Positions 1,992 to 9,098 of a DNA stretch of 64,000 bases are shown here, piece after piece. How positions within the stretch are numbered: position 1 is the first letter of the stretch; each line of letters starts with the position of its first letter. Below the pieces are notes generated by a model that worked only from the letters and a program-made list of their open reading frames with translations, had not been told where the DNA came from and made no database searches. Made by a program: the position numbers and the translations under genes. This DNA is from Blastocatellia bacterium (lineage in GTDB: Bacteria; Acidobacteriota; Blastocatellia; Chloracidobacteriales; JADJPF01): contig JANWYG010000019.1 in NCBI GenBank assembly GCA_025057015.1, forward strand, positions 62,001-126,000, given 5' to 3'.

Positions 1992-2077
1992 AAAATGCTT
2001 AGCCTCAAGCTCTTTGTATTTTCCTCAAGTCCATCTCAGTGTCTTTATCTTTTGAGCATCTTGTATTTCTTTGAGTT

Positions 2078-2450
2078 TCTCTGTGTTCTCTGTGTCTCTG
2101 TGGTTTATTTTATTTTCTTCACCACAAAGACACAGAGGACACAAAGGAAGCACAAAGAGTAAACCACAGAGGCACAGAGGACACAAAGGAAGCGCAAAGA
2201 GTAGGCCACAGAGTTTACAGGGAGTGCACAAGGAGGGAAGAGGAGGGCGAGGGAGAGGGAAAGTTAAGGAAACTTTGTGAATCTCTGTGTTCTCTGTGTC
2301 TCTGTGGTTTATTTTATTTTCTTCACCACAAAGACACAGAGGACACAAAGGAAGCACAAAGAGTAAACCACAGAGGACACAAAGGAAGCACAAAGAGTAA
2401 ACCACAGAGGACACAAAGGAAGCACAAAGAGTAAATCACAGAGGCACAGA
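2078..2450. repeat. Cluster of CACAGAG-type direct and inverted repeats
   Basis: The 515-base gap between ppa and the phosphatase gene is largely built from variations on CACAGAGGACACAAAGG. A 95-base block at 2078-2172 recurs identically at 2282-2376 (offset 204). Each block starts with the reverse complement of the motif (TCTCTGTG..GTGTCTCTGTGG), followed by a T-rich spacer and the forward motif, so each is an inverted repeat. Three 34-base tandem units follow at 2335-2436. Open frames through the region on both strands are low-complexity consequences of the repeat and not proteins. Similar CACAGAG-rich intergenic repeats occur in many environmental bacteria; their function is unknown. Confidence 0.9.
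2335..2436 (+). repeat. Three tandem 34-base repeat units
   Basis: Units start at 2335, 2369 and 2403, each beginning CACAGAGGACACAAAGG. The first two are identical; the third differs at its last base (T for C). The array ends in a partial CACAGAGGCACAGAG. Exact tandem units suggest recent expansion by slippage or recombination. Confidence 0.92.
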
Positions 2451-2506: not shown

Positions 2507-2969
2507 TTACTTGAGGGGCGATAGCGATTCGAGGTATTCGGAGAATATAGGATTAAAAAGAGCTCCAGGTCGCTTACTACGAAGTAGTTGTAGGGCTTCT
2601 TGTCCGCTGAGCCCTAGATAGGCTAGTGTGACACCAAGCAGTAGTGCGGAGCGGTTTAGACCCATCTTACAATGTGTAAGTACGGATTTGCCACTACGGC
2701 ACAGATCAGCCGCTAGTTTGGCCACCGCGTGGAGGAATTCTAAGTCTGGGAGCTCAGAATCTAGTATTGGAAGATAAACGTATAAAATTCTGTTAGGTGC
2801 GTTAGGTATGCCGTAATCGATATCACCATCTAGATCTATTATCACGTTATATTCCAGCTTCGAGAAGCCGCTTCCAGTCATCTCTATCGCCAGAAATATA
2901 AAGTTCACCGCCACCTTCTACATGAACTAGATCGGGTTCTGAAAATCTAGAGATTACTAGTTCTTGCAT
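2507..2969 (-). pseudogene. Tyrosine/dual-specificity protein phosphatase, apparent single-base frameshift
   Basis: The C-terminal 135 residues carry the Cys-based phosphatase signature HCKMGLNRS (HC-x5-R-S), where Cys forms the phosphocysteine intermediate and Arg binds phosphate. The longest frame can only start at a GTG at 2914 and gives an odd N-terminus. An ATG at 2969 in another frame encodes 40 natural-looking residues ending LLEAGI and a TAA at 2849-2847. Removing one T there joins the frames as EAGINVIIDLDGD, which reads like a normal phosphatase N-terminus. The gene is therefore either inactivated by a one-base insertion, mis-sequenced, or read by a +1 shift at the stop. It is divergent from the giant kinase gene (start 3057). 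Confidence 0.75.
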
Positions 2970-3056
2970 ATATACTATCCTAGCATAATCTAGGAGTTAG
3001 TAATCAAGAGAAAGTATTTTACTGCAAGGGGGGAGCTGCATCGAGGAGATGCTTTT

Positions 3057-6000
3057 ATGAGGATTGAGTCTGAAAAAGTGGAAAATATTGACACTTTACT
3101 CGGACGTACCTTAGGGGGGTTTGTAATAAGAGAGAAGCTTGGAGAAGGCGGGTTTGGGGCAGTTTATAGAGCAGAGCAGCAGATTCTTGGCCGCAAGGCT
3201 GTAATTAAGATTCTGCACAAGAAGCACCACTCTAAGCGTGAGCTAATAGAGCGTTTCATACGTGAGGCCAAGCTTGCGTCACAGCTAGAGCACCCTTATA
3301 CAGCTCATATTTACGATTTTGGAGCTGAGCCGGATGGGCTGTTATGGATTGCTATGGAGTTTGTGCGGGGAGTACCGCTTAGTACGCTTATAAAGAAGCA
3401 AGGATCGCTTCCGCTTGAGCGTGCAGTACCTTTGTTGGATAAGATTTGTGAAGTAGTACATACGGCGCATGAAGTAGGCATAGTGCACCGTGATATCAAG
3501 CCGGCGAATGTGATGGTTATCTCGCGAGCTGGAAAACTGTTGCCAAAGCTGTTGGACTTTGGCATTGCCAAAGGGGGATTACAGCCGGAAGGGCTTGTAA
3601 GCACGCAAAGCGTCAGCGATTTTGATGAAGAAACGCAGGAAGTTTCTATAACAGAGCCTCTCTGGAGAGTCGGTGCAGAGGATGTTACTAAGTCTATTTC
3701 GTCTGCTAGCGAACAGGCGGCAGAGGTTGTAACTGCTGGTGCTGTCGGGTCACCACCCTATATGGCACCTGAGCAGTGGACTAATTCTAAAATTGGCCCG
3801 CGGACAGATATCTATGCTTTAGGAGTACTCGCCTATGAACTTCTGACGGGTCGTAGGCCGTTTAGTGGTACTCCGTCTGAGCTGTTTAAGGCACACTTGC
3901 GCTCGCCGGTACCGTCATTAGGAAGTGGTTTCCCTGAGGCACTAGATCAGGTCATCGCCAAGGCGATGTCAAAAAAACCTGAGGAGCGTTATTCTACGGC
4001 GATAGATTTTGCGGCAGCATTTCGTCGCGCTGCTGGTTTTGCTGACGAACTAGTTAAGTTACCGGCGCTTGATGAGCTGACGTTGGAAAGTGTAATGACT
4101 ATGGCTCCTCAACCGGTGGCCGAAGCTGTATCTGGACTTGCAGCTGTGCGAAATATCTATCAAGCGAAGGAACAACTACGCGAGGTGGCTTCCACGGTAG
4201 CTCATTATATCGGTATAGTTGCTCTGGCTTGCGTAGTACGTGCCGGCATCTCTCGTGCTGATGACCAGCTGTCGGATTATCTGTCGAGGCTGCGTACTGG
4301 TTCGCTGGATGACAGTGACTGGGTAGACCTAGCAGTTGCCGTTTGTCGGCAAGCGGCTTCGGAGCCAGATTTGTTTTCTGTACCTGAGCTAGTCGACTTC
4401 TTGCTGGATAGCAGCGGTAACAAGTCTCCTCAAGCTGCATTATTAGAGCAACTTATCGATCCTCCAGGTTCAAGTTTAAGTGAGGACCAGCTATATAGTT
4501 TTGTTAAGGAAGCTTTTTCAAAGCTAGCTACGGTATTTCTCAAGCTTGAATTTTTGAACAAGTACCATCTTCTTGTCGTCCATGATGGAATTGCTGAAAG
4601 GTGGATGGGGATGAGCTTAAGGCTGGAGGAATCGGCGAGAGCTTCGGGGATATATTTGGTCAATGCTGATGGTGAGCAAGTATGTGAGCTTACACCTCTA
4701 GTAAGGATTGAGTCTACATATGAACTGTCTTCTCGGAAGCTGTTTTTGTTTTATGGCCGAGGGCGGCAAGGTGCTAGGTTTGTTTCTCATCCGCATCGCT
4801 TTGAGTGTAACGATGAAACCGCTTTGGAATGGTTTTCTAAGAAGTTTGTTCCTGAGCTCGAAGAAGAAGCTACTGTTAGCCCTGAGGTTCGTACGCCGTA
4901 CAAAGGGCTGAGTGCTTTTACGATTGCGGATGCTGATCTGTTTTTTGGTCGTGAGAGGGAGGTTGAGAGGGTAATAAACAGACTACGGGTGCAACCCATA
5001 GTGGCAATAGTAGGTCCTTCCGGAGCTGGTAAAAGCTCTTTTGTTCAGGCTGGAGTCCTACCTGAGCTGAAGGGATGGAGCTTTTTGCTGGTACGACCTG
5101 GGGCATCTCCCGTGGCCACTATTTGTGGTCGGCTTAGGAGGCATTTTAGTGGGTTTGGTGGTCGAGATAGGAATACGGGCAGGCTCACCGAGATAGAAGC
5201 TACCATGCAGATGAGCAAGCTTTGGATGGGGAATTTCGATTTTTTGCACTTTTACCTATACGAGAGGCTTGCTTCAGCTGGCAATGGCATCTTGATAGTA
5301 GTGGATCAGTTTGAAGAAATATTTACACTGTGTCTTGATGTAGAGGAACGCCGAGCTTACTGTGAAGGACTTGCTCGAGCTGCCGCTTCTGCTGACATAC
5401 CCATAAGATTGATTTTGACCTTGCGGGATGACTTCTTGTTGCGCGCAAGGGAGTTGCCTGCTTTGGGCGAGCGTCTATCTCAAGGATTAGAGTTGCTCGG
5501 TACGCCTGACAAGAGCGACCTGATAAGAATACTGGTAGAACCAGCGCACCGTTCTGGCTACAGTTTTGAAGATGAGCAACTGCCACGGGAGATAGCTGAA
5601 AGTGTGGCAGGAAAGCAAGGTGCGCTGCCGCTGCTTGCGTTTACTGCGTCTAGACTGTGGGAGATGCGGGATCGGCAAAACAAGCTCCTCAGGCGTAGAA
5701 CCTATGAGTCGCTCGGTGGTGTTGGTGGAGCACTGGCTCAACATGCAGAGGATGTAATGTGCAATATGACGCGCGAGGAACAACTGCTTGTGCGCGAAGC
5801 TTTTCGTCGGCTAGTCACAAGTGAAGGGACACGTGCTGTGATGAACAAGGATGAGTTACTGCAGGTGTTGGGCGGTAGTTCGGTTGCTGAAGCTGTAGTA
5901 GAGAAGTTGATTCAGGCACGGCTTCTGTCTGCTTGGGAAGGTGAGGGTGGGCAAGAACGAGTCGAAGTAGTACACGAAGCACTACTGGTAGCTTGGCCTA

Positions 6001-8363
6001 GGTTGGTGCGCTGGCGTCAGGAAGATGCCGAAAGTGCTAGACTTCGTGAGCAGCTTCAGGCTGCAGCTAAGCAGTGGAATGAGCGCGGCAGGCCTAAAGG
6101 ACTGCTGTGGAGAGACGAGGCGTTGCTTGAGTATGAGCTATGGAGGGCACGTTATCCAGGTAGGCTTACTCAAATCGAGGAAGCTTTTGCTCAGGCCAGC
6201 ATAGAAGAGGCGCAGCGTCTTAAGTCAACGCAGCGCTTGCTTATGGTGAGTGCAGTTGCTGTTTTACTGATAGGCTTCCTTGTGCTGTTTTGGCAGAGAC
6301 AAAAAGCACTAAGCAGCGAAAACGAAGCCAGGATGCAAGTGATAAATCTTTATGTTGAACAAGGTAGGCAGGAGCTGCTTGCTGGTAATGCAGCAAGAGC
6401 TCTGGCCTTTCTTAACGAAGCCTACAGCGCTGGCCGGGATGAGCCGAGCTTACGTTTTATGATTCGTCAAGCTAGGTTAGCAGTAGAGCCACCCAAAGCA
6501 GTTTTTCTGGAAGGGCATGCCGATTCAGTGCTTAGTGTAGCTTTTAGTCCAGATGGTAAATATATAGCTACTGCATCGGTTGATTCTACAGTCAGGCTCT
6601 ATAGCAGCGATTGTAAGCTTTTGACTGTAATTGTAGCGCATGAAGGTAGCGTAAATAGCGTTGCCTTTAGACCTGACTCGAAGATGATCCTCACGGCGGG
6701 TAGCGACGGTAACTTTAAAATGTGGACTTTGGACGGCCGGTATGTCTTAGCTGTGCAAGCTCATGACGGGCCTGTCAATTGTGCTGCTTTTAGCCCTGAC
6801 GGTAAGAGGATAGTTACTGCCGGCCTGGATCGCTTAGTACGCGTCTGGGACGTTGATGGGAAGTGCTTACTTAAGATTGAAGGGCATAGTTCAAACGTGC
6901 TCGATGCTAAGTTTAGTCCGGATGGGAGGCTGATAGTTAGTGCTGGTCATGATAGCAGTGTCAGGTTATGGAATTCTATTGATGGTGGACTTGAGGCCGT
7001 GTTTGTAGGACATGAGGGTACTGTGCATAGCGTAGGGTTTAGTCCGGATGCTACTTACTTGGTGACTTCCGGAAGTGACGGCAGCATTAAAGTTTGGGAA
7101 GTAGCAACAAAGCGTCTCCTCGGATCGATGGAGCAGCATCACGGTATAGTGCGCAGTGCCGTTTACTCGCCCGATGGAGCATTGATAGCCAGCGGTTCTT
7201 CAGATAGGACGCTGAAATTCTGGGATGCTAGATCGCTCAAGCTGCTCAAAAGTGACCAGCTAAGCGAGTTTGGGATAAACGATGTCGCTTTTAGTCCTGA
7301 CGGTAAAAAGTTACTAACAGCTTTCGCTGGTCAGCTAGTACAGATGTTTGATGTTCAGCCTGAAGATAGTACTCCGCAAGAGATAGCAGCTTTTGTGTAT
7401 AATAAGCTAGGGCTCAGGCTCGTAGGTGACCGGCTTGAATCGGTACAGGGTAAAGAGAGCACTGCTAAGCACAATTTTTCCAAAGCTACCTATGTTACGC
7501 CTTCGCCGGCTAGTTTTACCTTAAATAGATATAGCTTTGATGTGGTACAGGTAGATACTGTTGGGCGAGTGATCAAACGTACTACGAAGGAAGTGAGGTA
7601 TTTCAGTGAAGATTTAGGTAACGGTGTCACTTTGGATATGGTTGCTATACCAGGTGGTTCATTTTGGATGGGATCGCCTGAAGAGGAGAAGGAGCGGGAG
7701 AGAGAATTTGAAGGACCGCGTCGCAAAGTAGAGGTCAAGCCTTTTTTTATGAGTCGCTTTGAGATAACTCAAGCACAGTGGAAGGCTATTATGGGGACAA
7801 ATCCTTCGCACTTCAAAGGTGAGGATCTGCCGGTTGACAGTGTTTCTTGGTATGAGGCTATGGAGTTTTGCGAAAGGCTTTCGGAGAAAACCGGCAGGCT
7901 CTATCGGTTACCGACTGAGGCGGAATGGGAATATGCTTGTAGGGCGGGCACAGAAACTCCGTTTCATTTTGGGCCGACTATTACTTCTGATCTAGTTAAC
8001 TATCGCGGTAGCCATCCTTATGGTCTGGCTCCTAGGGGAATATTTAGAGAACGTCCTACGCAGGTAGGTAGCTTTGGGGTAGCAAATGGGTTCGGCTTGT
8101 ACGATATGCATGGAAATGTGGTTGAATGGGTGCTGGATGCTCTTCATAAAGGCTATGAAGGAGCGCCTTCGGATGCTAGGGCTTGGGAGCACAGTGACGA
8201 TCTAGACATAAGAGTATTGCGCGGAGGGTCTTGGGCAAGCCACGGATATGTGTGTAGATCAGCTTTTAGGAGCAGGTATAGTGCAGCTACCAAACACTAC
8301 CTGTTTGGTTTTCGTGTCGTAATGTGCGATAGAGCGTGGCTGGCCTCGCTGTCGAGGAATTGA
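3057..8363 (+). CDS. Ser/Thr kinase - STAND NTPase - WD40 - FGE-like fusion protein
   Basis: Giant 1768-residue signalling protein. Residues about 20-325 are a Hanks-type kinase: glycine loop GEGGFG from 29, Lys near 50, HRDIKPAN near 144, DFG near 166, APE near 237. Residues 330-610 form a mostly helical region I cannot name. A STAND-type NTPase follows, with Walker A GPSGAGKSS near 652 and Walker B ILIVVDQFEE near 745. One membrane segment lies near 1062-1080. Seven WD40-like repeats span about 1147-1430, and an FGE/sulfatase-modifying fold fills 1523-1762. At the paired FGE cysteine positions one is Ser1728 and the other Cys1733, so formylglycine formation is unlikely and ligand or peptide binding more plausible. 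The ATG has a GAGGAG ribosome site at 3043. The DUF4388 gene starts three bases after the stop. Confidence 0.93.
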   Translation: MRIESEKVENIDTLLGRTLGGFVIREKLGEGGFGAVYRAEQQILGRKAVIKILHKKHHSKRELIERFIREAKLASQLEHPYTAHIYDFGAEPDGLLWIAMEFVRGVPLSTLIKKQGSLPLERAVPLLDKICEVVHTAHEVGIVHRDIKPANVMVISRAGKLLPKLLDFGIAKGGLQPEGLVSTQSVSDFDEETQEVSITEPLWRVGAEDVTKSISSASEQAAEVVTAGAVGSPPYMAPEQWTNSKIGPRTDIYALGVLAYELLTGRRPFSGTPSELFKAHLRSPVPSLGSGFPEALDQVIAKAMSKKPEERYSTAIDFAAAFRRAAGFADELVKLPALDELTLESVMTMAPQPVAEAVSGLAAVRNIYQAKEQLREVASTVAHYIGIVALACVVRAGISRADDQLSDYLSRLRTGSLDDSDWVDLAVAVCRQAASEPDLFSVPELVDFLLDSSGNKSPQAALLEQLIDPPGSSLSEDQLYSFVKEAFSKLATVFLKLEFLNKYHLLVVHDGIAERWMGMSLRLEESARASGIYLVNADGEQVCELTPLVRIESTYELSSRKLFLFYGRGRQGARFVSHPHRFECNDETALEWFSKKFVPELEEEATVSPEVRTPYKGLSAFTIADADLFFGREREVERVINRLRVQPIVAIVGPSGAGKSSFVQAGVLPELKGWSFLLVRPGASPVATICGRLRRHFSGFGGRDRNTGRLTEIEATMQMSKLWMGNFDFLHFYLYERLASAGNGILIVVDQFEEIFTLCLDVEERRAYCEGLARAAASADIPIRLILTLRDDFLLRARELPALGERLSQGLELLGTPDKSDLIRILVEPAHRSGYSFEDEQLPREIAESVAGKQGALPLLAFTASRLWEMRDRQNKLLRRRTYESLGGVGGALAQHAEDVMCNMTREEQLLVREAFRRLVTSEGTRAVMNKDELLQVLGGSSVAEAVVEKLIQARLLSAWEGEGGQERVEVVHEALLVAWPRLVRWRQEDAESARLREQLQAAAKQWNERGRPKGLLWRDEALLEYELWRARYPGRLTQIEEAFAQASIEEAQRLKSTQRLLMVSAVAVLLIGFLVLFWQRQKALSSENEARMQVINLYVEQGRQELLAGNAARALAFLNEAYSAGRDEPSLRFMIRQARLAVEPPKAVFLEGHADSVLSVAFSPDGKYIATASVDSTVRLYSSDCKLLTVIVAHEGSVNSVAFRPDSKMILTAGSDGNFKMWTLDGRYVLAVQAHDGPVNCAAFSPDGKRIVTAGLDRLVRVWDVDGKCLLKIEGHSSNVLDAKFSPDGRLIVSAGHDSSVRLWNSIDGGLEAVFVGHEGTVHSVGFSPDATYLVTSGSDGSIKVWEVATKRLLGSMEQHHGIVRSAVYSPDGALIASGSSDRTLKFWDARSLKLLKSDQLSEFGINDVAFSPDGKKLLTAFAGQLVQMFDVQPEDSTPQEIAAFVYNKLGLRLVGDRLESVQGKESTAKHNFSKATYVTPSPASFTLNRYSFDVVQVDTVGRVIKRTTKEVRYFSEDLGNGVTLDMVAIPGGSFWMGSPEEEKEREREFEGPRRKVEVKPFFMSRFEITQAQWKAIMGTNPSHFKGEDLPVDSVSWYEAMEFCERLSEKTGRLYRLPTEAEWEYACRAGTETPFHFGPTITSDLVNYRGSHPYGLAPRGIFRERPTQVGSFGVANGFGLYDMHGNVVEWVLDALHKGYEGAPSDARAWEHSDDLDIRVLRGGSWASHGYVCRSAFRSRYSAATKHYLFGFRVVMCDRAWLASLSRN

Positions 8364-8366
8364 TTT

Positions 8367-9098
8367 ATGTTGTTACAAGGGAACTTAAAAGACAGGCCGC
8401 TACCACAGCTGTTGTACCAGATATACTCGGAAAGGAAGACGGGTACGCTGATGCTGTCCCTCAATGAGCTACGCAAGGCGATACTTTTTGACTCTGGACA
8501 GATACTTTCTGCTTATTCCAATCAGCGTGAGGATAGTCTAGGCGAGGTGCTTTTGCGGCTTGGCAAGATAACTGTTGACCAATATCTCGAAGCCGAAGCT
8601 TATGTAAAGCAGGGTAAGCGTTTTGGTCAAGTGTTGCTGGAGAGCGAAACTCTTACCGAAGCCGAGCTAACTGCACAGATATCCTACCAAGTACTTGGAA
8701 TAATCTACAGTCTCTTTTTATGGCAGATTGGGTACTATGAATTTGCAGAAGGCAAGCTACCGCAGAAGGATTTGCCGCGACTTGAGCTTTCTACTTTGGA
8801 CATAATATTTCGGGGAATCAAGATGATAAGAAGCTGGGAGCAGATCCGCAAGACGATAGACTCGCTGGATGAAGAGCTAGAACTAGTTCCAGACTACAAG
8901 GAAAGGCTTAAAGGTCTGCAGCTCAGTAAAGATGAGCTAATGGTGCTAAACATGATAGAACCCGGAGTGACGATAAGAGATATAACGTTGCTCAGTAACT
9001 TTAATTCTTTTGAGACTTGTAGGTTGCTTATGGGGTTTATCGTTATTGGTCTTGCCCGCAAACGAAGCTTGCCGAGTTGGATTACTCCTATTGAGTAA
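8367..9098 (+). CDS. DUF4388 (PATAN-like) domain protein
   Basis: Cytoplasmic protein of 243 residues without a signal peptide. The N-terminal 100 residues match the DUF4388 pattern: a short start (LLQGNLKDRPLPQLLYQI), then ERKTGTLMLS, a segment describing ligand-binding strands ending KAILFDSGQILSAYS, and helices with LGEVLLRLGKIT. Such domains are found with response regulators, GTPases and kinases in gliding or surface-sensing bacteria and are thought to be protein-interaction modules. Only three bases separate it from the giant kinase, so the two are almost certainly co-translated and probably work together. The C-terminal part has a helical region resembling a winged helix but is not assignable. 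Direct function is unknown. Confidence 0.8.
   Translation: MLLQGNLKDRPLPQLLYQIYSERKTGTLMLSLNELRKAILFDSGQILSAYSNQREDSLGEVLLRLGKITVDQYLEAEAYVKQGKRFGQVLLESETLTEAELTAQISYQVLGIIYSLFLWQIGYYEFAEGKLPQKDLPRLELSTLDIIFRGIKMIRSWEQIRKTIDSLDEELELVPDYKERLKGLQLSKDELMVLNMIEPGVTIRDITLLSNFNSFETCRLLMGFIVIGLARKRSLPSWITPIE

Follow-up and report, generated by a model that had tools for sequence, protein, structure and literature searches.

The stretch of DNA analysed here, 64,000 nucleotides long (the window), contains a gene whose 1768-residue product had been described, from its letters only, as a kinase, a STAND-type NTPase, WD40 repeats and an FGE-like domain in one chain. We asked whether this layout is genuine, how rare it is and how such a protein could work.

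Domain layout, relatives and conservation

The full-length protein was searched against Pfam. The matches followed the order Pkinase, nSTAND1, WD40 and FGE-sulfatase (Table 1), all were far above the cut-off, and the combination was repeated in relatives. The four-module description was therefore upheld, including the STAND and FGE folds, which Pfam bore out. The open reading frame starts with ATG, and a Shine-Dalgarno sequence (GAGGAGA, 3043-3049) lies 7 bases upstream. The Pkinase match begins at residue 24 and falls into two stretches, split by an insert in the activation loop. All the Hanks-type motifs were present, namely the glycine loop (GEGGFGAVY, 29), the VAIK lysine (AVIK, 48-51), HRD (HRDIKPAN, 144), DFG (167) and APE (YMAPE), so the kinase is intact in its catalytic motifs, as the sequence-only reading had stated. 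That reading was also right about the Walker A and B motifs, the membrane span and the seven WD40 repeats, six of which passed singly in Pfam. The span is the one strong hydrophobic stretch (mean KD 2.8). It was found at the same place in 8/8 sensor-bearing proteins examined, including ones with a different NTPase, and was always 19 residues long with a mean hydropathy of 2.0-2.8.

Table 1. Positions of the gene, its domains and its immediate neighbours in the window.
Feature	Coordinates	Strand	Basis
Multidomain gene, candidate receptor kinase, 1768 aa	3057..8363	+	ORF, homologues
Hanks-type Ser/Thr kinase domain (res. 16-318), catalytic motifs complete	3102..4010	+	Pfam Pkinase 1.5e-40, motifs
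Ser/Thr-rich insert between DFG and APE (res. 173-230), weakly conserved	3573..3746	+	alignment
HEPN-like helical domain (res. 348-503), RX4-6H motif absent	4098..4565	+	AF2 model, structural matches, distant relatives
Beta domain after HEPN-like part (res. 504-598), C-terminal part of middle region	4566..4850	+	AF2; HsdS-like matching segment
nSTAND1 NTPase (res. 614-1014)	4896..6098	+	Pfam 4.2e-100, motifs
Walker A, GPSGAGKSS (res. 653)	5013..5039	+
Walker B, ILIVVDQFEE (res. 745)	5289..5318	+
Predicted transmembrane helix (res. 1061-1079)	6237..6293	+	hydropathy
Linker, membrane span to propeller (res. 1080-1147)	6294..6497	+	alignment
WD40 beta-propeller, seven blades (res. 1148-1440)	6498..7376	+	Pfam WD40 1.1e-67, sequence
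FGE / C-type-lectin-fold domain (res. 1516-1757; Pfam match 1527-1755)	7602..8327	+	Pfam 9e-51, PDB sequence matches
Hypervariable FGE tail (res. 1722-1754)	8220..8318	+	conservation; coincides with variable repeat of DGR target
Dual-specificity phosphatase, HCKMGLNR (Cx5R) motif	2507..2914	-	Pfam DSPc 5.8e-10, translation
DUF4388 protein	8367..9098	+	Pfam; begins 3 bp past kinase stop

The window genome holds two copies of the gene (contigs 3 and 17), 47-49% identical in aligned pieces, and two MAGs from its family have more. An assembly chimera was rejected because these other genes have the same domain order. The region between kinase and NTPase occurred at strength in only 2 of the 396 phylum genomes sampled, the window genome and one of its family. 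A closer sample of the order added a third genome, giving 3/4 genomes of the family and 0/10 of the sister family; the carriers include the MAG JACQZQ01 (Acidobacteria, groundwater) and, by a matching fragment, Blastocatellia nzgw73. Besides the phylum sample, the search took in plasmids, where no record covered 80% of the protein, and one scan of genome contigs with the middle region. Among the genomes sampled, the four domains with membrane span and middle domain thus appear to be restricted to one bacterial family.

Copy number was 2-4 per genome, and the sensors were divergent. Identity among homologues was highest in the kinase catalytic core (64-86%), followed by nSTAND1 (52-75%); it was 42-61% in FGE, 30-61% in WD40, 25-61% in the HEPN-like part and 38-69% in the stretch 1040-1145. 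The kinase motifs, Walker A and the membrane span were retained. The activation-loop insert was 11-32% identical and reached about 170 aa in relatives. In one of them (L046:6423-12029), a DFG-APE insert of about 170 residues repeats an (S/N)Q(K/E)TII motif and, from this sequence, is possibly a multi-site phosphorylation platform. Another paralogue (L050:9014-14827) has its kinase C-lobe duplicated after a degraded first APE region. Taken at the level of sequence, the conservation pattern suggests a constant engine with changing sensors, as expected of a receptor.

The relatives display modular assembly: FGE is present or absent, the NTPase is swapped at the membrane span, and the kinase is fused or encoded by a neighbouring gene. 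Three of the four copies in JACQZQ01 carry FGE, and the fourth (L053) ends after the propeller with the remainder of the architecture kept, which indicates that FGE is a modular sensor. Elsewhere in the phylum, several other families have kinase-nSTAND1-WD40 proteins that lack both FGE and the middle region (L033, L036, L038, L043). At two loci of a genome from the sister family (G063), the tail from membrane span to FGE, 40-42% identical to the window protein, is fused to an AAA_35 ATPase, and a kinase-AAA_35 gene lies 21-30 bp upstream of the AAA_35-tail gene. The C-terminal half is therefore a unit tied to a kinase, either in the chain or through a neighbouring gene.

The middle region and the FGE domain

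Residues 325-612 had no Pfam match, and sequence searches of this region against PDB and Pfam gave nothing convincing. In an AlphaFold2 model from seven sequences (pLDDT 81, pTM 0.84), the helical nature claimed for residues 330-610 held up to about residue 503 and then gave way to a beta domain. Foldseek returned no significant fold match, with no E below 0.1. With a second structural aligner, the top match was the RNA-binding region of Roquin-2 (HEPN+ROQ; Z 12.5, rmsd 3.4, 130 aligned) and an AF_0298 HEPN was also matched (Z 7.0, rmsd 3.7, 113 aligned), Z values of a size that chance often produces with helical models. HepT-type and sacsin HEPN domains were among the matches as well, interspersed with unrelated helical proteins. 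In Roquin-2, the outer helices of the RNA-binding region make up the HEPN domain (PMC4614863).

The middle region has two distant profile relatives, L070 (an HsdS-like specificity protein) and L069 (a protein with a RecG-C-type domain), which aligned over different segments of it with an hhalign probability of 84-87%. At the HEPN position, each has an R-x4/5-H motif (RNDWSGH in L070, RNEISH in L069). These sequence matches support the HEPN-like call independently of the structural ones, and model and sequence together make a HEPN fold probable. Phylum and plasmid searches yielded no further relatives of this domain. Part of an HsdS-like protein from a different genome matches the beta domain (hhalign probability 84%); modelled alone, the beta domain was poor (pLDDT 55). 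The RX4-6H RNase motif, which is not retained by every HEPN family, was missing in 7/7 family members (LIDPPGSSL, LLDLQRDVAST, LLEFERANLLGAT). The HEPN-like domain is probably non-catalytic, and most likely a dimerisation or adaptor module rather than an RNase.

We take true formylglycine-generating enzymes to carry a pair of active-site cysteines in their terminal loop. The tail of the window protein (RGGSW, 1722-1726, then A, S1728 and C1733) has Cys1733 as its only cysteine with Ser1728 at the partner site, as noticed before, and relatives keep just the single Cys, in a CR(S/L)A motif. Among the PDB sequence matches, PvdO and TvpA, the latter a DGR variable protein, ranked before true FGEs, and the sequence grouped with lectin-like DGR-type FGE domains. 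By these features, the domain is not a formylglycine-generating enzyme, and the earlier preference for a non-enzymatic role stands.

Relatives of the FGE domain on cyanobacterial plasmids were up to 54% identical, and those inspected included a caspase fusion (Nostoc, L081) and a kinase fusion (Acaryochloris, L083). A third (L082, Fischerella plasmid AP018301.1) belongs to a DGR locus that also encodes bAvd and a reverse transcriptase. This locus has two FGE targets and is annotated only with hypothetical proteins and an RNA-directed DNA polymerase. Its variable and template repeats differ at 19 positions, 17 of them template adenines (adenines make up 33 of the 130 positions; p 2e-10); judged by its repeats, the DGR is genuine. 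The variable repeat covers the stretch that matches window residues 1721-1755, and within the FGE of the window family conservation is lowest in this tail (24-43% identity). The window genome (97% complete) had neither an RVT_1 match nor a second DNA copy of the tail, and a role as DGR target was rejected for it on these grounds. In a small tree, the FGE domains of the window protein and of its contig 17 paralogue (C17) grouped with cyanobacterial ones at moderate support (84/91), and those of the sister genus stood apart. This grouping suggests that the FGE domain may have been exchanged.

Genomic context, mechanism and alternatives

The phosphatase gene is divergent from the kinase gene, 142 bp apart, and its HCxxGxxR motif is intact; its product is a possible cognate eraser of the kinase. 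The DUF4388 gene is probably co-transcribed with the kinase gene, and its product is a possible partner. Neither a phosphatase nor a DUF4388 gene was found beside C17. In the DUF4388 protein, an MshE-type c-di-GMP motif is weakly developed, and about 6 kb downstream lie type IV pilus-type genes (T2SSE with MshEN). A low-complexity reading frame at 2025-2414 (-), with repeats around LCPLCLCGEENKINHRDTENTE, looks from its sequence like an intergenic repeat element rather than a gene. The remaining neighbours in the window include an aromatic lyase, a pyrophosphatase and a DinG-type helicase, and C17 is flanked by an aldehyde dehydrogenase, aminotransferases and a release factor. With metabolic and housekeeping genes at both loci, a defence island was rejected. 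The PADLOC matches listed were generic kinase models, all within the kinase domain, and the NCBIfam matches listed were below their own cut-offs.

In the reading that we favour, at a probability of roughly 55%, the protein is a receptor kinase that crosses the membrane once and is controlled by a STAND switch. Its propeller and its FGE/C-lectin tip would be extracytoplasmic and would recognise a ligand, be it a glycan, a protein or an envelope product. This contact would free nSTAND1 from its resting state; nSTAND1 would then exchange nucleotide and oligomerise, so that HEPN-like and kinase domains of several chains meet. The kinases would trans-autophosphorylate, probably on the long Ser/Thr-rich insert, and relay the signal by phosphorylating cytoplasmic partners. 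The domains, motifs, paralogues, conservation pattern and module swap are seen in the sequences; from them we infer this topology, ligand binding, oligomerisation, phosphorylation and output. The published STAND-FGS model has the same outline (PMC8195603, PMC10907252). The receptor is supported by the contrast between the most conserved kinase core and the most divergent sensors, by the same functional link in G063 despite another NTPase and a split gene, and by the FGE relatives that are fused to a kinase or caspase or, in one case, serve as a DGR target. The idea of a sensor coupled to a kinase stands, with an inferred mechanism, and "damage-sensing" found no support. Three points count against the favoured reading: the topology would follow from one hydrophobic span, many characterised WD40 domains are cytoplasmic, and the loop insert is poorly conserved. 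Basic residues flanking the span number 3 and 6 before it and 3 and 3 after it in the two own copies, a mild asymmetry.

The same chain might instead belong to a soluble cytoplasmic kinase, whose hydrophobic stretch is no true span and whose WD40-FGE part gathers protein partners. WD40 domains are platforms for complex assembly (PMC6113231), and the charge difference around the span is weak. The constancy of the span in eight proteins makes such a scaffold unlikely. A possible, less favoured alternative in our analysis is an immune receptor: a phage or invader component would be detected by the FGE tip, and the kinase would then drive the cell into dormancy or death. In favour of this, the protein has the layout of the class of PMC8195603, a STAND NTPase with FGS at the C terminus, and that class counts N-terminal kinases as effectors. 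The multiple copies with divergent sensors also fit, as do the cyanobacterial FGE relatives, which adjoin TIR, restriction or CRISPR genes or a DGR, and the distant HEPN-like relatives in HsdS-like and RecG-C-type proteins. Against the immune reading, the neighbourhoods are not defence islands, the reverse transcriptase and tail copy were not found in the window genome, the PADLOC matches listed reflect only the kinase, and an extracytoplasmic sensor would miss intracellular phage products.

Two catalytic readings are much less probable still. The HEPN-like domain follows the kinase directly, and the KEN domain of IRE1 and RNase L belongs to the HEPN family (PMC3710099), so the kinase might activate the adjacent domain to cut RNA; the RX4-6H site, missing from all aligned family sequences yet present in the two distant relatives, makes this very improbable. 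Equally hard to sustain is an FGE domain acting in signalling as an enzyme, by formylglycine formation or another oxidation. The Pfam name and the best PDB sequence match, the oxidoreductase PvdO, speak for it; the single cysteine with serine at the partner site and the grouping with lectin-like domains speak against it. Under the favoured receptor reading, if the topology is true, an immune-type FGE lectin and a propeller would act outside the cell, and the ligand would be directly testable by screening with a kinase read-out.

Comparison with known systems

FGS-centred STAND proteins were described as a class in 2021 (PMC8195603); nSTAND1 proteins belong to it, and its N-terminal effector can be an S/T/Y kinase. 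Counter-invader defence has been proposed for the class (PMC8195603, PMC10907252). Like its members, the window protein has a central STAND NTPase, a C-terminal FGE/C-lectin domain and, as N-terminal effector, a kinase (Pkinase), and its family has several copies per genome. It differs in the membrane span and WD40 between NTPase and FGE, in the HEPN-like domain between kinase and NTPase, and in a locus where neither a DGR nor defence neighbours were found; DGR association is frequent but not obligatory in the class. Also close are the DGR-diversified nSTAND1-FGE targets of Thiohalocapsa PB-PSB1 (PMC10907252) and the Fischerella target. The FGE of the window protein is 54% identical to that of the Fischerella target, and its variable tail lines up with the variable repeat there. 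The difference is that its genome had neither a reverse transcriptase nor a second DNA copy of the tail.

The kinase-nSTAND1-WD40 proteins of the phylum share its domain order, but have no FGE and no space for the 290-residue HEPN-like/beta region. In Pfam, the FGE-sulfatase family once went under the name DUF323. Kinase-WD40 and kinase-DUF323 pairings in cyanobacteria were listed in 2007 (PMC2176072). These kinases and PkwA (PMC6113231) combine a kinase with one sensor domain; a STAND NTPase plus both sensors, as in the window protein, is not described there. The rarity claimed for the four-way combination was narrowed accordingly by the phylum proteins and the 2021 class (PMC8195603): it appears to hold for the four domains with span and middle domain, found only in one sampled family, but not for kinase-nSTAND1-WD40, present in other families of the phylum, or for STAND-FGE with a kinase, already published. 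New are the union of kinase, STAND and FGE with a propeller and a membrane span in one protein, the HEPN-like domain inserted into it, and the module swaps revealed by comparing relatives. One chain thereby unites modules usually seen in pairs (kinase-WD40, kinase-FGE, STAND-FGE).

The degenerate HEPN-like domain beside the kinase offers a parallel to IRE1 and RNase L. In both enzymes a kinase is followed by a HEPN-fold domain, as is probably the case in the window protein, and IRE1 too senses across a membrane; the window protein has lost the RNase motif and carries a STAND switch and another sensor. The sequences gave no evidence for common descent of the two arrangements. Tentatively, the window protein might be a bacterial counterpart of IRE1: a transmembrane kinase-HEPN receptor switched by STAND, with a propeller and an immune-type lectin outside and with HEPN as a non-catalytic RNA-binding or dimerisation module.
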